Part shown: positions 4,167-46,326 of the stretch, piece after piece
Position numbering within the stretch: position 1 is the stretch's first letter
Layout of the letters: the number at the start of each line of letters is the position of its first letter
Assembly: GCA_016938035.1 (NCBI GenBank)
Contig: JAFGVK010000047.1
Location: forward strand, 1 to 64,000
DNA: 64,000 nucleotides
Reading direction: 5' to 3'
Source of the DNA: Deltaproteobacteria bacterium
Lineage (GTDB): Bacteria; Myxococcota_A; UBA796; GCA-2862545
The notes under the pieces: generated by a model
Databases searched by the model: none
The model's input: the letters and a program-made list of their open reading frames with translations, nothing else
Told to the model about the DNA's origin: nothing
Translations under genes and position numbers: made by a program

Positions 4167-5180
4167 CTAGCCACCCAGGGCGCCCTTCAGCTCAGCGTAG
4201 GCGTGGTTGATCGCCTTCACCTTCTCGTTGGCGAAGTCCTGGAAGCCGCGCGCCAGGTGCTGCACCGTGTCGGGGTGGTAGTCCCGCACCAGGCGGCGCC
4301 ATGCCCTCTTCACCTCGGCCAGCTGCGCCCCGGGCTCCAGCTCCAGCTCGGCGTAGTAGGGGCGCAGCCGCTCCTCTCCGAAGCGGAGGTGGTCGTGTAC
4401 CCCCAGCAGGCCGAGCAGCTCGGCGATAAAGGCGTCGCCTCGCTCGGTGATGGGGCCCCGCGACCTCGCGGCGCGGTAGAGCAGCTCGACGAACAGCGCG
4501 TGCTCTGCGTGGGGGAGCACCGCTCGCAGCACCTCGGCGAGGGTCGCGGGGGTGTGCTGGGCCCTGTTGGCTACCTTGAGCACCCTCCGCAGCGCGTGAT
4601 CGCCCAATTCGTCGAGCTCGAAGTGGGTGATGAGCGCCTCGCGGATCACCCCCACCGACTCGCGCGCCAGGGGACCGTCCGCCCTACAGACCGCGATCAG
4701 GGCGTGGGCGGTCACCGAGAGCAGGTCGGGGCTGCGGAGCAGCTCGTCGGGGAGCTCCACCTCGAACCACGCCAGGGCCGCCAGCCCCTCGGGGCCGTGT
4801 ACCGACACCTCCACCGTCATCGGCCCCCCCGCCTCCTCGGGGAAGACCGCGTAGGGCAGGACCATCACGATCTCTTCGGCCAGACCCTGGGCGCTGAGGC
4901 GGAAGGCTGCGCTCACCGCGAGGACCCCGTCGGGGTCCTGGTAGTTGCTGCGCTCGGTCCAGAGATAGTGCTCGCCCCAGCGGAGGCGGAGCACCGCCTG
5001 GTGGTCCTGGCTGGCGCCCCTCGGGGCGGACAGGTCGAAGCTCACCGTCAGGCAGGGGCCAGAGGTGGACACCTCGGAGGTGTCGGTCTCGAACCAGGTG
5101 ATCTCCCCGTGAGGAGGGCGCCACTGATCCCAGACCGCGGCGGGGCGGCTGGAGCCGCTTGTGAGCTGGTACTCGGTCAT
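4167..5180 (-). CDS. TerB-like and C-terminal J-domain co-chaperone (DjlA-like)
   Basis: The 337-aa protein has three parts. Residues 1 to about 145 look like a beta-rich domain of unknown function. About 150-270 is an alpha-helical TerB-like region with two weak repeats (AVCRADGPLARE and AARSRGPITERG). A J domain occupies about 275-333 and includes HPD at 302-304, which stimulates DnaK ATPase activity in this family. The TerB then J order is that of DjlA, but there is no N-terminal membrane anchor, so this should be cytoplasmic. The ATG at 5180 has GGAG just upstream; the longer frame to 5309 has no family support. It is divergent from argS. Confidence 0.75.
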   Translation of the reverse strand: MTEYQLTSGSSRPAAVWDQWRPPHGEITWFETDTSEVSTSGPCLTVSFDLSAPRGASQDHQAVLRLRWGEHYLWTERSNYQDPDGVLAVSAAFRLSAQGLAEEIVMVLPYAVFPEEAGGPMTVEVSVHGPEGLAALAWFEVELPDELLRSPDLLSVTAHALIAVCRADGPLARESVGVIREALITHFELDELGDHALRRVLKVANRAQHTPATLAEVLRAVLPHAEHALFVELLYRAARSRGPITERGDAFIAELLGLLGVHDHLRFGEERLRPYYAELELEPGAQLAEVKRAWRRLVRDYHPDTVQHLARGFQDFANEKVKAINHAYAELKGALGG

Positions 5181-5283
5181 GGGCTCCACTCTAGCCAGCC
5201 GCGGGCTCGGGCGGAAGGCAGGGGTGGCTCGCGGGGGGGGGGTCGGATAGCCGGGGCTCCCCTTTGATCTTGTGGAGCCCCCC

Positions 5284-7005
5284 ATGCAGACCCTCTCCGA
5301 GCACCTCACCGAGCTGATCCGTCAGGCCGCGGTGGCCGCTGGCTACGGCGACAACGACGTCCCCCTGGAGCCCTGCGTCCCCACCGATCCGCGCAACGGG
5401 GACTACCAGTCCAACTACGCCTTCCGGCTCGGCAAGGCGGCCCGCTCCAACCCCAGGGCGGTCGCCGCCGCGATGGTGGAGGCCCTGCCCGCGGATCCCC
5501 TGGTGGCCTCCGCGGAGGTGGCTGGTCCCGGCTTCATCAACCTGCGCCTGCGCGACGAGGCCCTCGCGGCCCACCTCCTGGCGCGGCTCGACGGCGAGGG
5601 CTTCACCCTCAGCCAGCCGGGCGCGGGCAAGACGATGGTGATCGACTTCTCCTCCCCCAACATCGCCAAGCGGATGCACGTCGGCCACCTGCGCTCCACC
5701 ATCATCGGCGACGCCCTGCGGCGGATCTACGCCTCCCTCGGCTGGCGGGTCATCGCCGACAACCACATCGGAGACTGGGGCACGCAATTCGGAAAGCTGA
5801 TGGTCGCCTGGCGTCGCTGGCTCGACCAGGACGCCTTCGACGCGGACGCGGTGGGAGAGCTGCAGCGCCTCTACCAGCTCTTTGGAGCCAAGGCCGAGGA
5901 GGATCCCTCCTTGGAGGACCTGGCGAGGGCCGAGACCGCCAAGCTCCAGAGCGGCGATCCCGAGAACACCGCCCTGTGGCGCCGCTTCGTCGACGCCTCG
6001 CTGGAGGAATTCGACGCGGTGTACGACAGGCTGGGGGTGGTCTTCGACGTGACCCTGGGCGAGTCCCACTATCAGTCCCGCCTCTCGCCCCTGGTCGAGG
6101 GGGTGCTGGCGCAGGGCCTCGCGGAAGAGGACCAGGGCGCGGTGATCATCCGCTTCGGGCCCGAGGACGGCAAGGCGCTGGCGGACACCCTGCTGCTGAT
6201 CCGCAAGTCCGACGGGGCCGCCCTGTACGGCACCACCGACCTCGCCACCGTCGCCTATCGGATGGAGACCTGGCAGCCCGATCTGATCGCCTACGTCACC
6301 GACGTGAGGCAGCGCCTGCACTTCAGCCAGGTCTTCGCCGCCGCGCGCAAGATGGGGATGGCGTTCACGCCGGAGCACGTCTACTTCGGCATGCTCCGCC
6401 TGGCGGGGGGGGCCATCGCCGCGACCCGCTCGGGGGCGGTGCTCAACCTCGTGGACGTGCTCGACACCGCGGTGGAGCGCGCGCGGGGGGTGGTGGACGG
6501 GAAGAGCGGGCACCTCTCCGACCAGGAGCGCGCTGGCATCGCTGAGGCGGTGGGCGTGGGCGCTATCAAATACGCGGACCTCTCCCAGAACCCCCAGTCC
6601 GACATCGTCTTCGACTGGGACAAGATGCTCTCGATGGAGGGCAACACCGCGCCTTACCTGATGTACGCCTACGCGCGCTGCATGAGCATCTTCCGCAAGG
6701 CCGACAGGGACGGATTTGTGCCTGGCGGTATCGCCTTGGAGCACCCCTCGGAGCGCTCGCTTGCGGTGCTCCTCGCGCGCACACCTGAGGTGGTGGAGCG
6801 GGCGGCGGAGCTGTGGCGCCCCAACGTGGTGGCGGACCACCTGTTCGCGGTGGCCAACACCTTCGCGAGCTTCTACCATGACTGTCGCGTCATCGGCGAG
6901 TCCCCCGAGGTGGAGCAGTCCCGCCTGTCGCTGGTCCGCGCCACCGCGGCGGTGCTGGAGCAGGGGATGAAGCTGCTGGGCATCCAGCCCCTCGATCGAA
7001 TGTAG
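5284..7005 (+). CDS. argS: Arginyl-tRNA synthetase
   Basis: This 573-aa class Ia synthetase charges tRNA-Arg. The N-terminal add-1 (Arg-S) domain occupies about 1-95. The HIGH-type motif is HVGH at 132-135, inside NIAKRMHVGHLRS. The KMSKS position is replaced by an AATRSGA stretch, as is normal for many ArgRS, so this is not a defect. The helical DALR anticodon-binding domain forms the C-terminus, with PYLMYAYAR near its start. The ATG at 5284 follows GTGGAG; an upstream in-frame GTG at 5272 lacks a ribosome binding site. It is apparently monocistronic. Confidence 0.96.
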   Translation: MQTLSEHLTELIRQAAVAAGYGDNDVPLEPCVPTDPRNGDYQSNYAFRLGKAARSNPRAVAAAMVEALPADPLVASAEVAGPGFINLRLRDEALAAHLLARLDGEGFTLSQPGAGKTMVIDFSSPNIAKRMHVGHLRSTIIGDALRRIYASLGWRVIADNHIGDWGTQFGKLMVAWRRWLDQDAFDADAVGELQRLYQLFGAKAEEDPSLEDLARAETAKLQSGDPENTALWRRFVDASLEEFDAVYDRLGVVFDVTLGESHYQSRLSPLVEGVLAQGLAEEDQGAVIIRFGPEDGKALADTLLLIRKSDGAALYGTTDLATVAYRMETWQPDLIAYVTDVRQRLHFSQVFAAARKMGMAFTPEHVYFGMLRLAGGAIAATRSGAVLNLVDVLDTAVERARGVVDGKSGHLSDQERAGIAEAVGVGAIKYADLSQNPQSDIVFDWDKMLSMEGNTAPYLMYAYARCMSIFRKADRDGFVPGGIALEHPSERSLAVLLARTPEVVERAAELWRPNVVADHLFAVANTFASFYHDCRVIGESPEVEQSRLSLVRATAAVLEQGMKLLGIQPLDRM

Positions 7006-41063: not shown

Positions 41064-43418
41064 TCAATAGAACAGCAGCGGCCCAAAGGCCACGATCAGC
41101 AGGGCGGCGCCCATCACCGCCATCGGCATCAGCAGGTGTTCGTGGCGCGCCAGCCCTGTGACGCCCTCGTCGCGGAGGTCCGCCTCCGGCCCCACCACCT
41201 GTCGGGCGAGCAGGTGGTTCAGGGCCACAGGGGGGGTCAGGTATCCCAGCTCGAAGGCCACCAGCACCATCATCCAGAAGTGGACCGGCGCGATGCCCGC
41301 GTCGTAGGCGACCCCCGCGAGGGACACCGACACCAGGATCACCGCTCCCATCGCGTCCATCGTCATGCCTACCAGCACCATCGCCACCACCAGCACCGAC
41401 ATCGCGGCCCAGGGGGAGCTGAGGGCGGGCACCAGCCGCATCAGCTCTGCCCGCTCCACCACTCCGCCCAGCCCCACAGAGGCGACCATCAGCGGGAGTA
41501 TGGCGCCAACGTGGACTCCGCTCTCGGCGGTGGCGTGGGACAGGTGCTCCCCGAGGGATCGCCAGGAGCCCCGCGCTGCGAGGGCCTCCCAGCCCACCAC
41601 CGCCAGGAGCACCAGCGGCAGCACCGAGGGGGCGGAGTGCTCGTCCATCCACGCCCCCAGCACTAGGCCCACCGCTAACACCGTGCCCGAGGCCACGGCC
41701 AGCGAGGGGAGCAGCGCCCTGCTGGCGCGGAGGGTCGCGGGCAGCGCCTCCCTGGGGGCGGTCAGCCGGAGGGGGCGCCGCAGCTTGAGGAGCATCGCCA
41801 TCAGGAACAGGCCCGCGGTGAGGGCGAACACCCACCTGCCCCAGTGGAACAGCTCGGTGGTGGTGACCTGCTTGTTCATCACCGAGATCAGCACCACCAC
41901 TAGGCAGGGGGCCAGCACCACCCCCAGGCTCCCCGACATCGCGGTGGCGCCCAGGGCCAGGGCCCGGCTGGAGCCGGCCTCGCGGAGCTGGTGGAAGATC
42001 ACCGCGCCCGCCGCGATGACGAAGATGCCTGAGGCCCCAGACCACGCGGTGGGCACCGCCGCCAGCACCACCACCAGCCAGGCGAGGAGCGGGGCGGGGA
42101 GCCCCCAGGGGCGGAGCAGGCCGAACACCCTGTCGGCCACCTGAGTGCGCGAGAGGAGCATCCCAGACCAGATGTAGAGGCCGATGCCCACGTAGATGCT
42201 CGGGTGCTGCGCGAAGCGGTGCAGGTAGGTGGCCTGCCCCGAGGGGTAGCCCTCCACCAGCAGGAACCAAGCAGCCGCGATCAGGCCCAGCCAGGCGTAG
42301 AGCGGCACCACCAGCGGCGCGCGGGCCCAGCTCCCCTCGGGTGTCAGGTCCGCGGGGGGGCGCGCCAGGTGGCGCAGGTTGATCAGCGCCGCGACGCTGA
42401 AGACCCCTGCCCACAGGAGGGGCAGGGAGGGGTTCTCGGCCTCGGCGCTGGAGCCAGAGGCCACCAGCCTGTCCGCCAGGGCGGACGCGGCCCACAGCAG
42501 GTGCACCGCGAGCTGCGAGAGCTGCGAGACCCTGTGCTCGAGCAGGGTGGCGGGGTCGCGGAGGGCGATCGGCCTCGCGTCGGCGGTGGCGCGGAGCAGC
42601 CCCAGGCCCACCAGCACCACCAGCAGGTGCTTCCACCACGGGAAGCCCGCCAGCGAACCGATCGTCAGGTCCACCGATCGCCAGGCCATCACCGCGGGGG
42701 TTCGGCGGCGCTGAGTGTCTTCCCACCGGCTCAGGGCGCTCTGGCACTGGGCCCTGGCGGCGAACACCGAGGCGCAGGCCGCGCCGTCGGGCGCCGCGCC
42801 GACCCCCATCGCTGGGATCGCGAAGGGGTCGTGGCCTGCGAAGGGGTCCGCGGCTGGGGCGTCGGGTGCTGGGGTCGCGAAGGGGTCGTCGCCTGCGAAG
42901 GGATCTGCGGCCGCTGTGGGGTGCGCGGGCTCGGCGAAGGGGTCGTCGCCTGCGAAGGGGTCGGCCGCGCCGGATGGTGGTGGCGCCCCGCGTCTCGCAG
43001 GGGTGGGCTCCCCGGAGGGGGCCACCGCCGCGGTCGTGGGCGCGGGCTCGGCGAAGGGGTCGTCGCCCGCGAAGGGGTCTGCGGCTCGGGCGTCGGCCGC
43101 TGTGGCGTGCGCGGGCTCGGCGAAGGGGTCGTCGCCCGCGAAGGGGTCGTCGCCTGCGAAAGGGGCGGTGCTGTCGCCATCAGCGGGGGATCTGACCCCA
43201 CGCACCGGGTCGCAGCTGGCAGCCCGCGCCGCTAGCGCGTCGAGGTCACAGGTGGGAGGGGCGGGGTCGGCGCGCAGCTCCGAGGCGTAGCCGGGCCACA
43301 GCGCCTCGCCGCCCTGCACCAGCCTGGTGGTGGTCTGGGGGGCGATCCCCACCACCACCGCAACCAGGAACACCCCGATCAGGGCCCAGATCGGGAGGGC
43401 CCTCGTCCACCTGCGCAT
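41064..43418 (-). CDS. Fused TRAP transporter permease (DctQ-DctM) with DPFA-repeat insertion
   Basis: This 784-aa membrane protein has one N-terminal span (WALIGVFLVAVVVGIA) and then about 200 residues of low-complexity sequence with eleven PFA units (DPFAGDDPFAEPA type). A DctQ-like four-helix part follows, and from about 430 a DctM-like large permease with a GATAMSGSLGVVLAPCLVVV-type region and ELGYLTPPVALN. TRAP systems import organic acids or other solutes using ion gradients and a binding protein, encoded just upstream. The DPFA insertion is probably periplasmic if the first span is a signal anchor. Confidence 0.85.
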   Translation of the reverse strand: MRRWTRALPIWALIGVFLVAVVVGIAPQTTTRLVQGGEALWPGYASELRADPAPPTCDLDALAARAASCDPVRGVRSPADGDSTAPFAGDDPFAGDDPFAEPAHATAADARAADPFAGDDPFAEPAPTTAAVAPSGEPTPARRGAPPPSGAADPFAGDDPFAEPAHPTAAADPFAGDDPFATPAPDAPAADPFAGHDPFAIPAMGVGAAPDGAACASVFAARAQCQSALSRWEDTQRRRTPAVMAWRSVDLTIGSLAGFPWWKHLLVVLVGLGLLRATADARPIALRDPATLLEHRVSQLSQLAVHLLWAASALADRLVASGSSAEAENPSLPLLWAGVFSVAALINLRHLARPPADLTPEGSWARAPLVVPLYAWLGLIAAAWFLLVEGYPSGQATYLHRFAQHPSIYVGIGLYIWSGMLLSRTQVADRVFGLLRPWGLPAPLLAWLVVVLAAVPTAWSGASGIFVIAAGAVIFHQLREAGSSRALALGATAMSGSLGVVLAPCLVVVLISVMNKQVTTTELFHWGRWVFALTAGLFLMAMLLKLRRPLRLTAPREALPATLRASRALLPSLAVASGTVLAVGLVLGAWMDEHSAPSVLPLVLLAVVGWEALAARGSWRSLGEHLSHATAESGVHVGAILPLMVASVGLGGVVERAELMRLVPALSSPWAAMSVLVVAMVLVGMTMDAMGAVILVSVSLAGVAYDAGIAPVHFWMMVLVAFELGYLTPPVALNHLLARQVVGPEADLRDEGVTGLARHEHLLMPMAVMGAALLIVAFGPLLFY
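42812..43171 (-). repeat. DPFA tandem coding repeats in the TRAP permease
   Basis: About eleven GCGAAGGGGTC-type units (plus-strand view) encode PFAGDDPFAEPA-like peptides with Ala/Pro spacers. Codons are near-identical between units, suggesting recent expansion. The same motif ends the TatT-like protein. Confidence 0.85.
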
Positions 43419-43421
43419 CGG

Positions 43422-44438
43422 CTACTCGCGGGGAGAGGCGCACTCGGCGCGGGAGGGGGATCTGGCGCAGCGCAGCTTGCGCAGGGCCGACAGCATCGCC
43501 GGATCGTAGGCCCCCAGCTCGTCCCGCAGGCGCAGGCGCACCTCCAGGAACAGGGCGTCCCACTCGGCCTGCTGCGGGGCGGAGGGGACGATCCACATCG
43601 CCTCGGGGATCTGGGCGTCGGCTCGCTTCGCCACCGCCACAGAGTCCGCGAAGTGTTCCGCAAACCAGGTGCGCGATCTCGCGCCGAAGTCCTCCGGGAA
43701 GGCGGGCGCGCGCACCATCAGCTGCAGGGTGGCCTGCGCGAAGGGGGCCCGCATCACGCCGCCGGAGGTGCCCAGCCCTCGCCACAGCTCGAAGGGCGCG
43801 TAGCCCGGCGCGGACATGTAGCACAGGTCCACCGCGCCGTTGTTGAACTGGGGCCCGATGCTCCCCAGGTCGGCGGGGACCATGATCGCACCCACCCGCT
43901 TCACCATCTCCGGGGCGGCCTTGTCGTAGTCCATGGTGGCGACCCGCTTGCCCGCCAGCTCCGGCACAGTGTCCATCGTGCGGTCGCGGAGGAACAGGTA
44001 CACCGCCCCAGCAGAGAGCATCCCCACCGTCTCGTGGTCACCGGAGCGCAGCCTGGCCGCGGCGGAGGGGTAGCGGGCCAGGGTCCACATCATGTCCGAG
44101 AGGTGGTCGTAGTCGGGCACCGCGCCCATCGCCTCCAGGGTAGAGGGGAAGCGGTTGAAGCGCTGGAGGCGGACGCCCGTGGCGAGCACGCCGTCGCAGC
44201 TCCCCGCCTCGTAGTCCCTGGTGGCGGTCTCCTCGTCGGTGTAGGGGCGCAGGCTCAGGTCCACCCCCCAGCCCGCGGCGGCGAGGGCGAACTCGTCGAT
44301 CTGCGCGTAGAATTCCCCAGCCTTTCCGGCGGGATCGTACACACAGAGGGCGTGTGGGGTGGCCAGCGCTGGTGCGGCGAGCAGGAGCGAGAGGCCCGTC
44401 AGGAGCAGGCGGCGCAGGGAGGGGAGAGTAGGCGACAT
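43422..44438 (-). CDS. TRAP-type solute-binding protein
   Basis: The 338-aa periplasmic protein starts with a signal peptide (LLLTGLSLLLAAPALATPH) and has the alternating alpha/beta pattern of DctP-like binding proteins, with LAGKRVATMDYDKAAPEMVKRVG near the hinge and the conserved region LGSIGPQFNNGAVDLCYMS. It lies 3 bp before the fused permease gene and 17 bp after the TatT-like gene. It delivers the substrate to the permease; the ligand is unknown. It diverges from classic DctP proteins and fits the putative-solute-binding TRAP subset. Confidence 0.8.
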   Translation of the reverse strand: MSPTLPSLRRLLLTGLSLLLAAPALATPHALCVYDPAGKAGEFYAQIDEFALAAAGWGVDLSLRPYTDEETATRDYEAGSCDGVLATGVRLQRFNRFPSTLEAMGAVPDYDHLSDMMWTLARYPSAAARLRSGDHETVGMLSAGAVYLFLRDRTMDTVPELAGKRVATMDYDKAAPEMVKRVGAIMVPADLGSIGPQFNNGAVDLCYMSAPGYAPFELWRGLGTSGGVMRAPFAQATLQLMVRAPAFPEDFGARSRTWFAEHFADSVAVAKRADAQIPEAMWIVPSAPQQAEWDALFLEVRLRLRDELGAYDPAMLSALRKLRCARSPSRAECASPRE

Positions 44439-44455: not shown

Positions 44456-45451
44456 TCAGGGTGCGAAGGGGTCCGCGGCGAAGGGGTCGGCGTCTGGGCC
44501 GCGCCCCTGGGGTTTGGGGTCAGAGGGGAGCAGGCCGAACACCTCGGTGCGGTGCCCCGACGCTCCGGTCCAGATCAGGTCCGACTCGTGCAAGCTGACC
44601 TCGTAGGCGAAGGCGTCGAGCAGGGCCCAGTCCCGGTCTGGCTCGTACGCTGTCAACGCCTGGGCGTGGGCGCGGATTCCCGCCTCCACCTCCTCCTCGC
44701 GGCCTGCGTTTGCCGCGAGCAGCACCTGGAGGGCGCGAGAGAGGCGCACCCCCGAGCGCGCCCCCCGCCCCGCGGCGTCCTCCAGGGCGTCCCAGGGGTC
44801 CACCCCGTCGGGCCCGGCGCCGGGGATCACCGCCCCCACCGCGACCTGCATCGCGGTGGGCACCTGCCACCAGCGCTCGGCGTTGAGGCAGGTGGCGCCG
44901 CTAGAGATGGCGGACAGGGTGTCGTCGGGGATGTGCCGGACCGAGACCTCGCCTCTGCGCTCGTGGAGCAGGCCCATCAGGCCGGAGAACATCCCCAGCA
45001 GGTAGACGAATTCCTCGTCCTGGTCCATGTCAGGGCACGCGCCGCGGAGGTTGCCGTAGACCGCCTGGGTGTGGTCCCAGGCCCGGCCATAGCGGGCAGC
45101 GGCCCGCTGGTGCGCCCGCTGCTCGCGCAGGCGCGCGTCCATGGCCAGCGCGGCGCGCCCCTCGCCGAGGGGACCCAGCAGGCGCCTCGCCCGCAGGCCC
45201 TCCAGCTCCGCCTCCCGCACCTCGGTCTCGCCGCACAGGGCGCCCACCGTCTCTGCGACGATCAGCGCCTGCTCCGGGGGCCTGCGGGGGGGGGTGGCGG
45301 CGGACAGCGGCGCTTCCAGGGCCAGCCCCATGGTGCAGGCGAGCTGCACGTCGGGGAGGCGCACCGCCCGGTCCACCACCCGCTCCACCACCACCCTGTC
45401 CACCGCACCTGGGGCGCAGGCGAGGGCCGAGAGCAGCAGCAGCGGGGTCAC
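44456..45451 (-). CDS. TatT-like TRAP-associated lipoprotein
   Basis: The 331-aa product begins with a likely lipoprotein signal (LLLLSALACAP) and is alpha-helical thereafter, consistent with TPR-type TatT (the T component described for treponemal TRAP systems). That family link rests on gene order and helical content more than on motif identity. Its last residues are DADPFAADPFAP, repeating the motif of the permease. The GTG start overlaps the methyltransferase stop (GTGA). It lies next to the binding-protein gene. Confidence 0.6.
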   Translation of the reverse strand: MTPLLLLSALACAPGAVDRVVVERVVDRAVRLPDVQLACTMGLALEAPLSAATPPRRPPEQALIVAETVGALCGETEVREAELEGLRARRLLGPLGEGRAALAMDARLREQRAHQRAAARYGRAWDHTQAVYGNLRGACPDMDQDEEFVYLLGMFSGLMGLLHERRGEVSVRHIPDDTLSAISSGATCLNAERWWQVPTAMQVAVGAVIPGAGPDGVDPWDALEDAAGRGARSGVRLSRALQVLLAANAGREEEVEAGIRAHAQALTAYEPDRDWALLDAFAYEVSLHESDLIWTGASGHRTEVFGLLPSDPKPQGRGPDADPFAADPFAP

Positions 45452-46326
45452 GCCGGCTCCCCCGCCGTGAGGCCGTCCTCGTCGACGGAGAAGCGGATCG
45501 GGATCGGCCGGTCGGCCCTGCCGCCCAGCTCCCTGTCCCAGGCGCAGACCAGCTGCCCCCAGTGCCCACTGACCCCCGGCGCGTTGCTCATCACCAGCCC
45601 CTCGTCGAGCTGCGCCTCGAACCAGAGCACGACCCCCCCCACCGGCCCGGGCTCCAGCGGCAGCAGCGGCACCACGCGCTCCTCCTCCGGCTCCTCGTCG
45701 GTGCCTAGGGCCAGATCCCAGATCAGGGCCGGGGCGCTTGCGAGGGCCGGGGCGGCGGCCACGTAGCTGTAGGGGCCCGCGTCACCGAGGGCGTCGAGGA
45801 GGCTCCCCAGGTTGAGGTCGAGGCGCGACGCGAGGGCGCGCACCTGATCGCGGGCCGCGCGGGCCTCCTGCGCGCTGCCGGGCTCGCGCACCAGCGCAGC
45901 CCAGACCCGCAGCCTGGAGGGGGCGAGGTGACCGCGGGGGGCTAGCCACTCGGCGCCGGCAGCCGAGGCGTCGAGCACGCCCTCCACGAAGGGATCGGCG
46001 TTGAGCAGCTCCGAGAACACCAAGTCTACCGGCCGGGGCGCGAGGTCCTGCACCTCGCCGCGCAGCACCTCGACGATCCCCTGCAGGCCGTTGTCGCGGA
46101 CCAGCTGCTCGGCCACCTCCACCAGCGGTGTGGGCTCCACCGCGTAGACCTTGCGCGCCCCTAGCTTGGCCGCGGCGAGGGAGAGCAGGCCGGTGCCGCA
46201 CCCGATCTCCAGCACCCTGTTCCCAGGCGCACGGCGCCGCAGCAGCTCCAGCAGCGCCTCGTTGCGCGGGGCGTCAGACAGGAGGCGGAGGTGTTCCCAG
46301 GGGTTGGCGAAGAGGCTGAGGTCCAC
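45448..46326 (-). CDS. PRMT-like protein arginine methyltransferase (PRMT7/9 type)
   Basis: This 292-aa SAM-dependent enzyme has motif I VLEIGCGTGLLSL (38-50) and an acidic post-I residue (AVEP). The loop SELLNADPFVEG places Glu106 and Glu115 nine residues apart, exactly as in the double-E loop that binds arginine in PRMTs. The C-terminal part has a beta-barrel-like GGVVLWFEAQL and SGHWGQ, matching the THW-loop region. The SEL...EG form is closest to PRMT7/PRMT9. A ribosomal-protein or other methyltransferase is the alternative. It is first in the TRAP operon and overlaps the TatT-like start. Confidence 0.75.
   Translation of the reverse strand: MDLSLFANPWEHLRLLSDAPRNEALLELLRRRAPGNRVLEIGCGTGLLSLAAAKLGARKVYAVEPTPLVEVAEQLVRDNGLQGIVEVLRGEVQDLAPRPVDLVFSELLNADPFVEGVLDASAAGAEWLAPRGHLAPSRLRVWAALVREPGSAQEARAARDQVRALASRLDLNLGSLLDALGDAGPYSYVAAAPALASAPALIWDLALGTDEEPEEERVVPLLPLEPGPVGGVVLWFEAQLDEGLVMSNAPGVSGHWGQLVCAWDRELGGRADRPIPIRFSVDEDGLTAGEPA

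Follow-up and report, generated by a model that had tools for sequence, protein, structure and literature searches.

The locus and its genes

The window, by which we mean the whole analysed stretch of 64,000 nucleotides (contig JAFGVK010000047.1), carries a methyltransferase gene followed on the same strand by three genes of a TRAP transporter:

45448..46326, minus strand: PRMT-superfamily methyltransferase gene (292 aa, GTG start codon, GGAG before the start)
44456..45451, minus strand: TRAP T gene, for a TatT/TPAT-like, all-helical putative lipoprotein; its start overlaps the methyltransferase stop
43422..44438, minus strand: gene for the TRAP solute-binding protein P, AdeT1_2 family (Pfam PF19582, E=2.5e-54)
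41064..43418, minus strand: gene for the TRAP large permease M (DctM), with DPF repeats (Pfam PF06808, E=5.4e-17)

The open reading frame at 45448-46326 had been picked out in the initial annotation without a strand, and our analysis bears it out on the minus strand; the plus-strand frame over the same interval is interrupted by stops. The GC content at its codon positions 1/2/3 (0.81/0.49/0.94) and the concentration of nucleotide differences from the nearest ortholog in the third position (86/75/140 at codon positions 1/2/3) speak for a genuine coding gene. The sequence GTGA on the minus strand holds both the stop of the methyltransferase and the start of the T gene. The T protein has no match among Pfam families or PDB sequences, and its AlphaFold model is all-helical. 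Foldseek ranks a TPAT-family protein first (probability 0.97, E=0.25) and Treponema TatT seventh (probability 0.89, E=0.72) and, since these E-values are weak, the description of T as TatT-like is plausible, not proven.

Fold and catalytic motifs

Four parts of the methyltransferase, all encoded on the minus strand, recur in the argument below:

46189..46215, minus strand: SAM-binding motif I, VLEIGCGTG, residues 38-46, read from the sequence, with Gly42 and Gly46 invariant in the 17 orthologs
45982..46011, minus strand: double-E loop from Glu106 to Glu115, both invariant in the 17 orthologs and aligned with AtPRMT10
45784..45879, minus strand: helix-turn-helix at the place of the dimerisation arm, residues 150-181, from the AlphaFold secondary structure
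45553..45564, minus strand: HWGQ, counterpart of the THW loop (His255 and Trp256, with Gly for Thr), from conservation and alignment

Used as a single query against PDB sequences, the protein retrieves only PRMTs among the best 60 matches listed, with Arabidopsis PRMT10 (a PDB entry deposited as PRMT 4.2) at the top (E=3.9e-21). A profile of the orthologs, a set of 17 that includes the window protein and whose other members are 42-61% identical to it, reaches E=6.8e-36 and spans the methyltransferase part and the barrel part as far as the HW loop; the best PDB sequence matches are AtPRMT10 and PRMT6. The AlphaFold model (pLDDT 90.7) is matched over its whole length by PRMT3, CARM1 and PRMT6, which make up the best 50 Foldseek matches in the PDB (E ~1e-22, TM-score 0.75-0.84 on query length, ~300 columns). 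In the model, strands are predicted between residues 128 and 288, and two helices (150-169 and 174-181) sit between two barrel strands, a position that suggests they are the counterpart of the PRMT dimerisation arm. The Pfam family PRMT_C is matched by four of the 17 orthologs (E up to 2.8e-5), and in the window protein it scores 11.4 bits, below the cutoff of 27. We regard the 292-aa protein as almost certainly a bacterial enzyme of the PRMT superfamily. The initial annotation had arrived at a PRMT-type enzyme from the two loops and had proposed HMM comparison and structure prediction as checks. The searches against PDB sequences and the fold comparison place PRMTs first, and the double-E loop, the HW loop, the barrel half and helices at the arm position are all there; best matches to L11-type or small-molecule methyltransferases, with neither double-E pocket nor barrel and arm, which it had named as the contrary outcome, are not what we found.

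The individual motifs are as expected for such an enzyme in most, but not all, respects. Glu106 and Glu115 do lie nine residues apart in SELLNADPFVEG, and the HWGQ reported after WFEAQL is present as GHWGQ, with His255 and Trp256. In the alignments, the double-E loop falls on the SEWMGYFLLRES loop of AtPRMT10, and HWGQ on its THWGQ (ortholog profile against PDB sequences). None of the 17 orthologs departs from the window protein at Asp18, Arg21, Glu64, Glu106, Glu115 or His255, and Trp256 is conserved in at least 90% of them. By alignment with PRMT sequences, Asp18 and Arg21 are the N-terminal D..R and Glu64 is the ribose-binding glutamate, while alignment with solved PRMTs makes Glu106 and Glu115 the double-E pair and His255 the His of THW. 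The SAM-binding features are complete, with the post-I motif VYAVE, at the acidic end of strand 2, in addition to VLEIGCGTG.

The departures lie elsewhere. The position of the Thr in THW is mostly Gly among the 17 orthologs, but also S, T or N. As PRMT7 has DHW, Thr is not strictly required in this loop, and the change to Gly is by itself no argument against activity. The type I helix YFxxYxxxxxH..M is absent at full length and is replaced by a shortened FANPWEHLRLL, of which no more than the His and the D..R after it stay in register. The clade has an N-terminal motif F-x-[DN]-P-W-E that differs from the eukaryotic protein-modifying PRMTs, and an invariant Trp10 that is peculiar to it. Together, the Gly for Thr, the shortened helix and Trp10 point to a pocket that may be different on its substrate side.

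Distribution of PRMT-like genes

Orthologs of the window protein occur in 14 of 57 related genomes. A scan of named genomes yielded four loci, three of them orthologs, all three from Myxococcota, including a Sandaracinus MAG. The genome of the window contains three further PRMT-like genes, which brings its number to four:

G000:C62, 4949-5884 (also delimited as 5033-5836): paralog L043, adjoining an Eco57I-type methylase gene
G000:C151, 2619-3335: paralog adjoining a PilJ/MCP chemotaxis receptor gene
G000:C198, 689-1432: paralog

These paralogs (labels L043-L045) are ~31-34% identical to the window protein, fall outside its clade and all score above the Pfam PRMT_C cutoff. In a sample of the phylum, the profile matches in 92 of 284 genomes, some of these matches being partial and confined to the generic methyltransferase core; a manual count of rows spanning most of the profile gives a full-length PRMT-like protein in ~45 of the 284. 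PRMT_C was found in none of 14 control genomes, and a search for relatives on plasmids returned none. PRMT-like genes are common in Myxococcota. In some of these Myxococcota proteins the double-E is lost, as in L023, where Asp stands at both places (SDFMGRFVVDDGM), which hints at a different substrate or chemistry.

Protein arginine methylation is well known in eukaryotes; to our knowledge, it has hardly been studied inside bacteria. The statement of the initial annotation that it is scarcely described there fits the biochemistry, but not the genes, given how frequent they are in this phylum. Our search of the open literature found no study of Myxococcota PRMTs, and for bacterial PRMTs and SznE it found just reviews and passing mentions. 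A 2022 review gives as bacterial cases two predicted PRMTs of Legionella and Rv1988, an arginine methyltransferase of Mycobacterium tuberculosis (PMC10117894). The two Legionella proteins, from L. pneumophila (PMC10117894), are earlier bacterial examples of the PRMT type. Another is the arginine methyltransferase SznE. All of these come from other phyla, and we liken the window protein to them by description only. A single Myxococcota genome can contain several PRMT-like genes, which may offer a lead on the origin of the eukaryotic PRMTs.

Relation to PRMT7/9 and other PRMTs

A maximum-likelihood tree built from 52 sequences unites the orthologs in a clade with support 100/100, which is sister to another bacterial group (96/89) and lies outside the PRMT1/6/10 clade. 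It is a separate, undescribed clade of Myxococcota, with the window protein as a member. The initial annotation had likened the protein to PRMT7/9, and some features agree: 'D..RN' following the N-terminal helix and a double-E loop with 'E...EG' are PRMT7/9-like, and an AU test with the orthologs forced together with PRMT7/9 does not reject the grouping (p=0.262; forced with PRMT1/6/10, p=0.082). However, the placement beside PRMT7/9 has support of only 34/14, the best matches are to other PRMTs, and the protein has a single module, whereas the PDB chains of PRMT7 and PRMT9 comprise two modules and ~690-720 aa. Trypanosomal PRMT7 is a single-module exception to this tandem architecture. PRMT1/3/6, CARM1 and Arabidopsis PRMT10 give the best sequence and fold scores and share the whole fold, the double-E, the HW loop, the SAM motifs and the arm helices, at ~20-23% identity to type I PRMTs/PRMT10 in structural alignment; the window protein differs from them in its lack of a full-length YFxxY helix and in the Gly for the Thr of THW.

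The same tree, which is narrowly sampled and has no known root, places the eukaryotic PRMTs in two positions, PRMT1/6/10 with two bacterial proteins (97/93) and PRMT7/9 apart from them. The paralog L043 from the window's own genome and L081 are involved in this pattern. A single eukaryotic PRMT clade is rejected (AU p=0.009), in a test of the grouping made once a tree had been seen. One may imagine that the eukaryotic type I PRMTs and PRMT7/9 come from different bacterial branches, that the Myxococcota sets truly methylate protein arginine, and that the clade of the window protein is a further, undescribed branch; we consider this scenario possible, though doubtful.

Chemistry and substrate

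The conserved residues suggest a model for the enzyme. SAM would be bound via the VLEIGCGTG and VYAVE motifs, a guanidino group would be held between Glu106 and Glu115, His255 and Trp256 would close the pocket, and the methyl group would then be passed to a guanidino nitrogen. The substrate would most likely be an arginine residue of a bacterial protein or peptide. The enzyme would stand alone and would probably form a dimer through the helical arm 150-181. Judging from the residues, methylation of a guanidino group is probably the reaction, with protein arginine as the favoured target. With such a small enzyme of bacterial origin, its catalytic pocket intact, one could test directly if bacteria methylate arginine in their own proteins.

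Other readings start from the same data. Pfam's top match for the protein is PrmA (40.8 bits), and NCBIfam too reports PrmA (35.3 bits), as if it were a ribosomal protein L11-type or other generic class I methyltransferase. Yet these matches are confined to the SAM-binding core (residues 31-112), the NCBIfam cutoffs are 183 and above (equivalog cutoff 183.15), and outside that core the alignment is with the barrels of PRMTs, so that this reading is extremely improbable. We reject the PrmA identity because the matches span the SAM core only and the score lies far under the NCBIfam cutoffs; automatic annotation as PrmA or generic methyltransferase masks PRMT-type enzymes such as this one. If the substrate were not a protein but a small guanidino compound, such as free arginine, agmatine or a metabolite that contains arginine, this would fit the invariant double-E, which suits any guanidino substrate. 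It would also fit the compact size of 292 aa, with a short N-terminal helix and no domain besides the PRMT-type module, and the F-x-[DN]-P-W-E motif unlike that of the eukaryotic protein-modifying enzymes. SznE of streptozotocin biosynthesis is a reported free-arginine methyltransferase. However, the orthologs examined show no recurrent or biosynthetic neighbourhood: only the gene itself and opposite-strand frame artefacts are shared by more than five loci, and the neighbours that Pfam can name are unrelated to each other, with no conserved one that would indicate a substrate. A small-molecule substrate therefore appears unlikely to us. As for the reaction itself, the cyanobacterial NRPS protein LynB3 contains a PRMT-like domain that is presumed to perform tyrosine O-methylation (PMC10127204), and so the PRMT fold alone is no proof of chemistry. 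This precedent, together with those Myxococcota paralogs that, like L023, have Asp for both glutamates, could argue for methyl transfer to an O, S or C atom in a metabolite. Since both glutamates are invariant in all 17 members of the clade, we judge such chemistry very unlikely for the window protein and favour guanidino methylation.

Genomic context and the TRAP genes

The initial annotation had also coupled the methyltransferase to the TRAP operon. The GTGA overlap of stop and start is real and may couple the expression of the two genes in this genome, where they may be co-transcribed, but the step to a functional link does not hold up. Such a link, for instance methylation of the solute-binding protein or of the transported solute, draws on the overlap, on the common strand of the methyltransferase and T, and on one further genome (G027), in which T and an ortholog lie within ~7 kb on the same strand with ~6 kb between them. 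T orthologs are present in 13 of 22 genomes. Against the link, T, P and M are kept together in 12 relatives, in none of which the methyltransferase stands beside them; in a comparison that took in the loci of 17 orthologs and 12 loci with TRAP genes, the adjacency is found in the window's genome only. Two genomes (G004 and G005) have T without a methyltransferase match and five (G007, G017, G033, G045 and G047) have a methyltransferase ortholog without a T match, several of these assemblies being incomplete. An overlap seen in a single genome is no evidence of shared function, and on this comparison of loci we reject the partnership, which we hold to be most unlikely; the overlap is local to the window's genome and looks accidental.

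The TRAP proteins have a peculiarity of their own. DPF motifs occur twice in the C-terminus of T (44459-45451, minus strand) and ten times in the permease M (41067-43418, minus strand), where they lie between membrane segments one and two, and not at all in P. Among the 12 relatives (loci L100-L111), nine have DPF in both T and M and the gene order T-P-M, and three have it in neither protein and the order P-T-M. Across the whole 5.2-Mb genome of the window, the tandem patterns DPFx2DPF and DPFx3DPF are found only in the T and M genes. The matched repeats are possibly a periplasmic docking motif.
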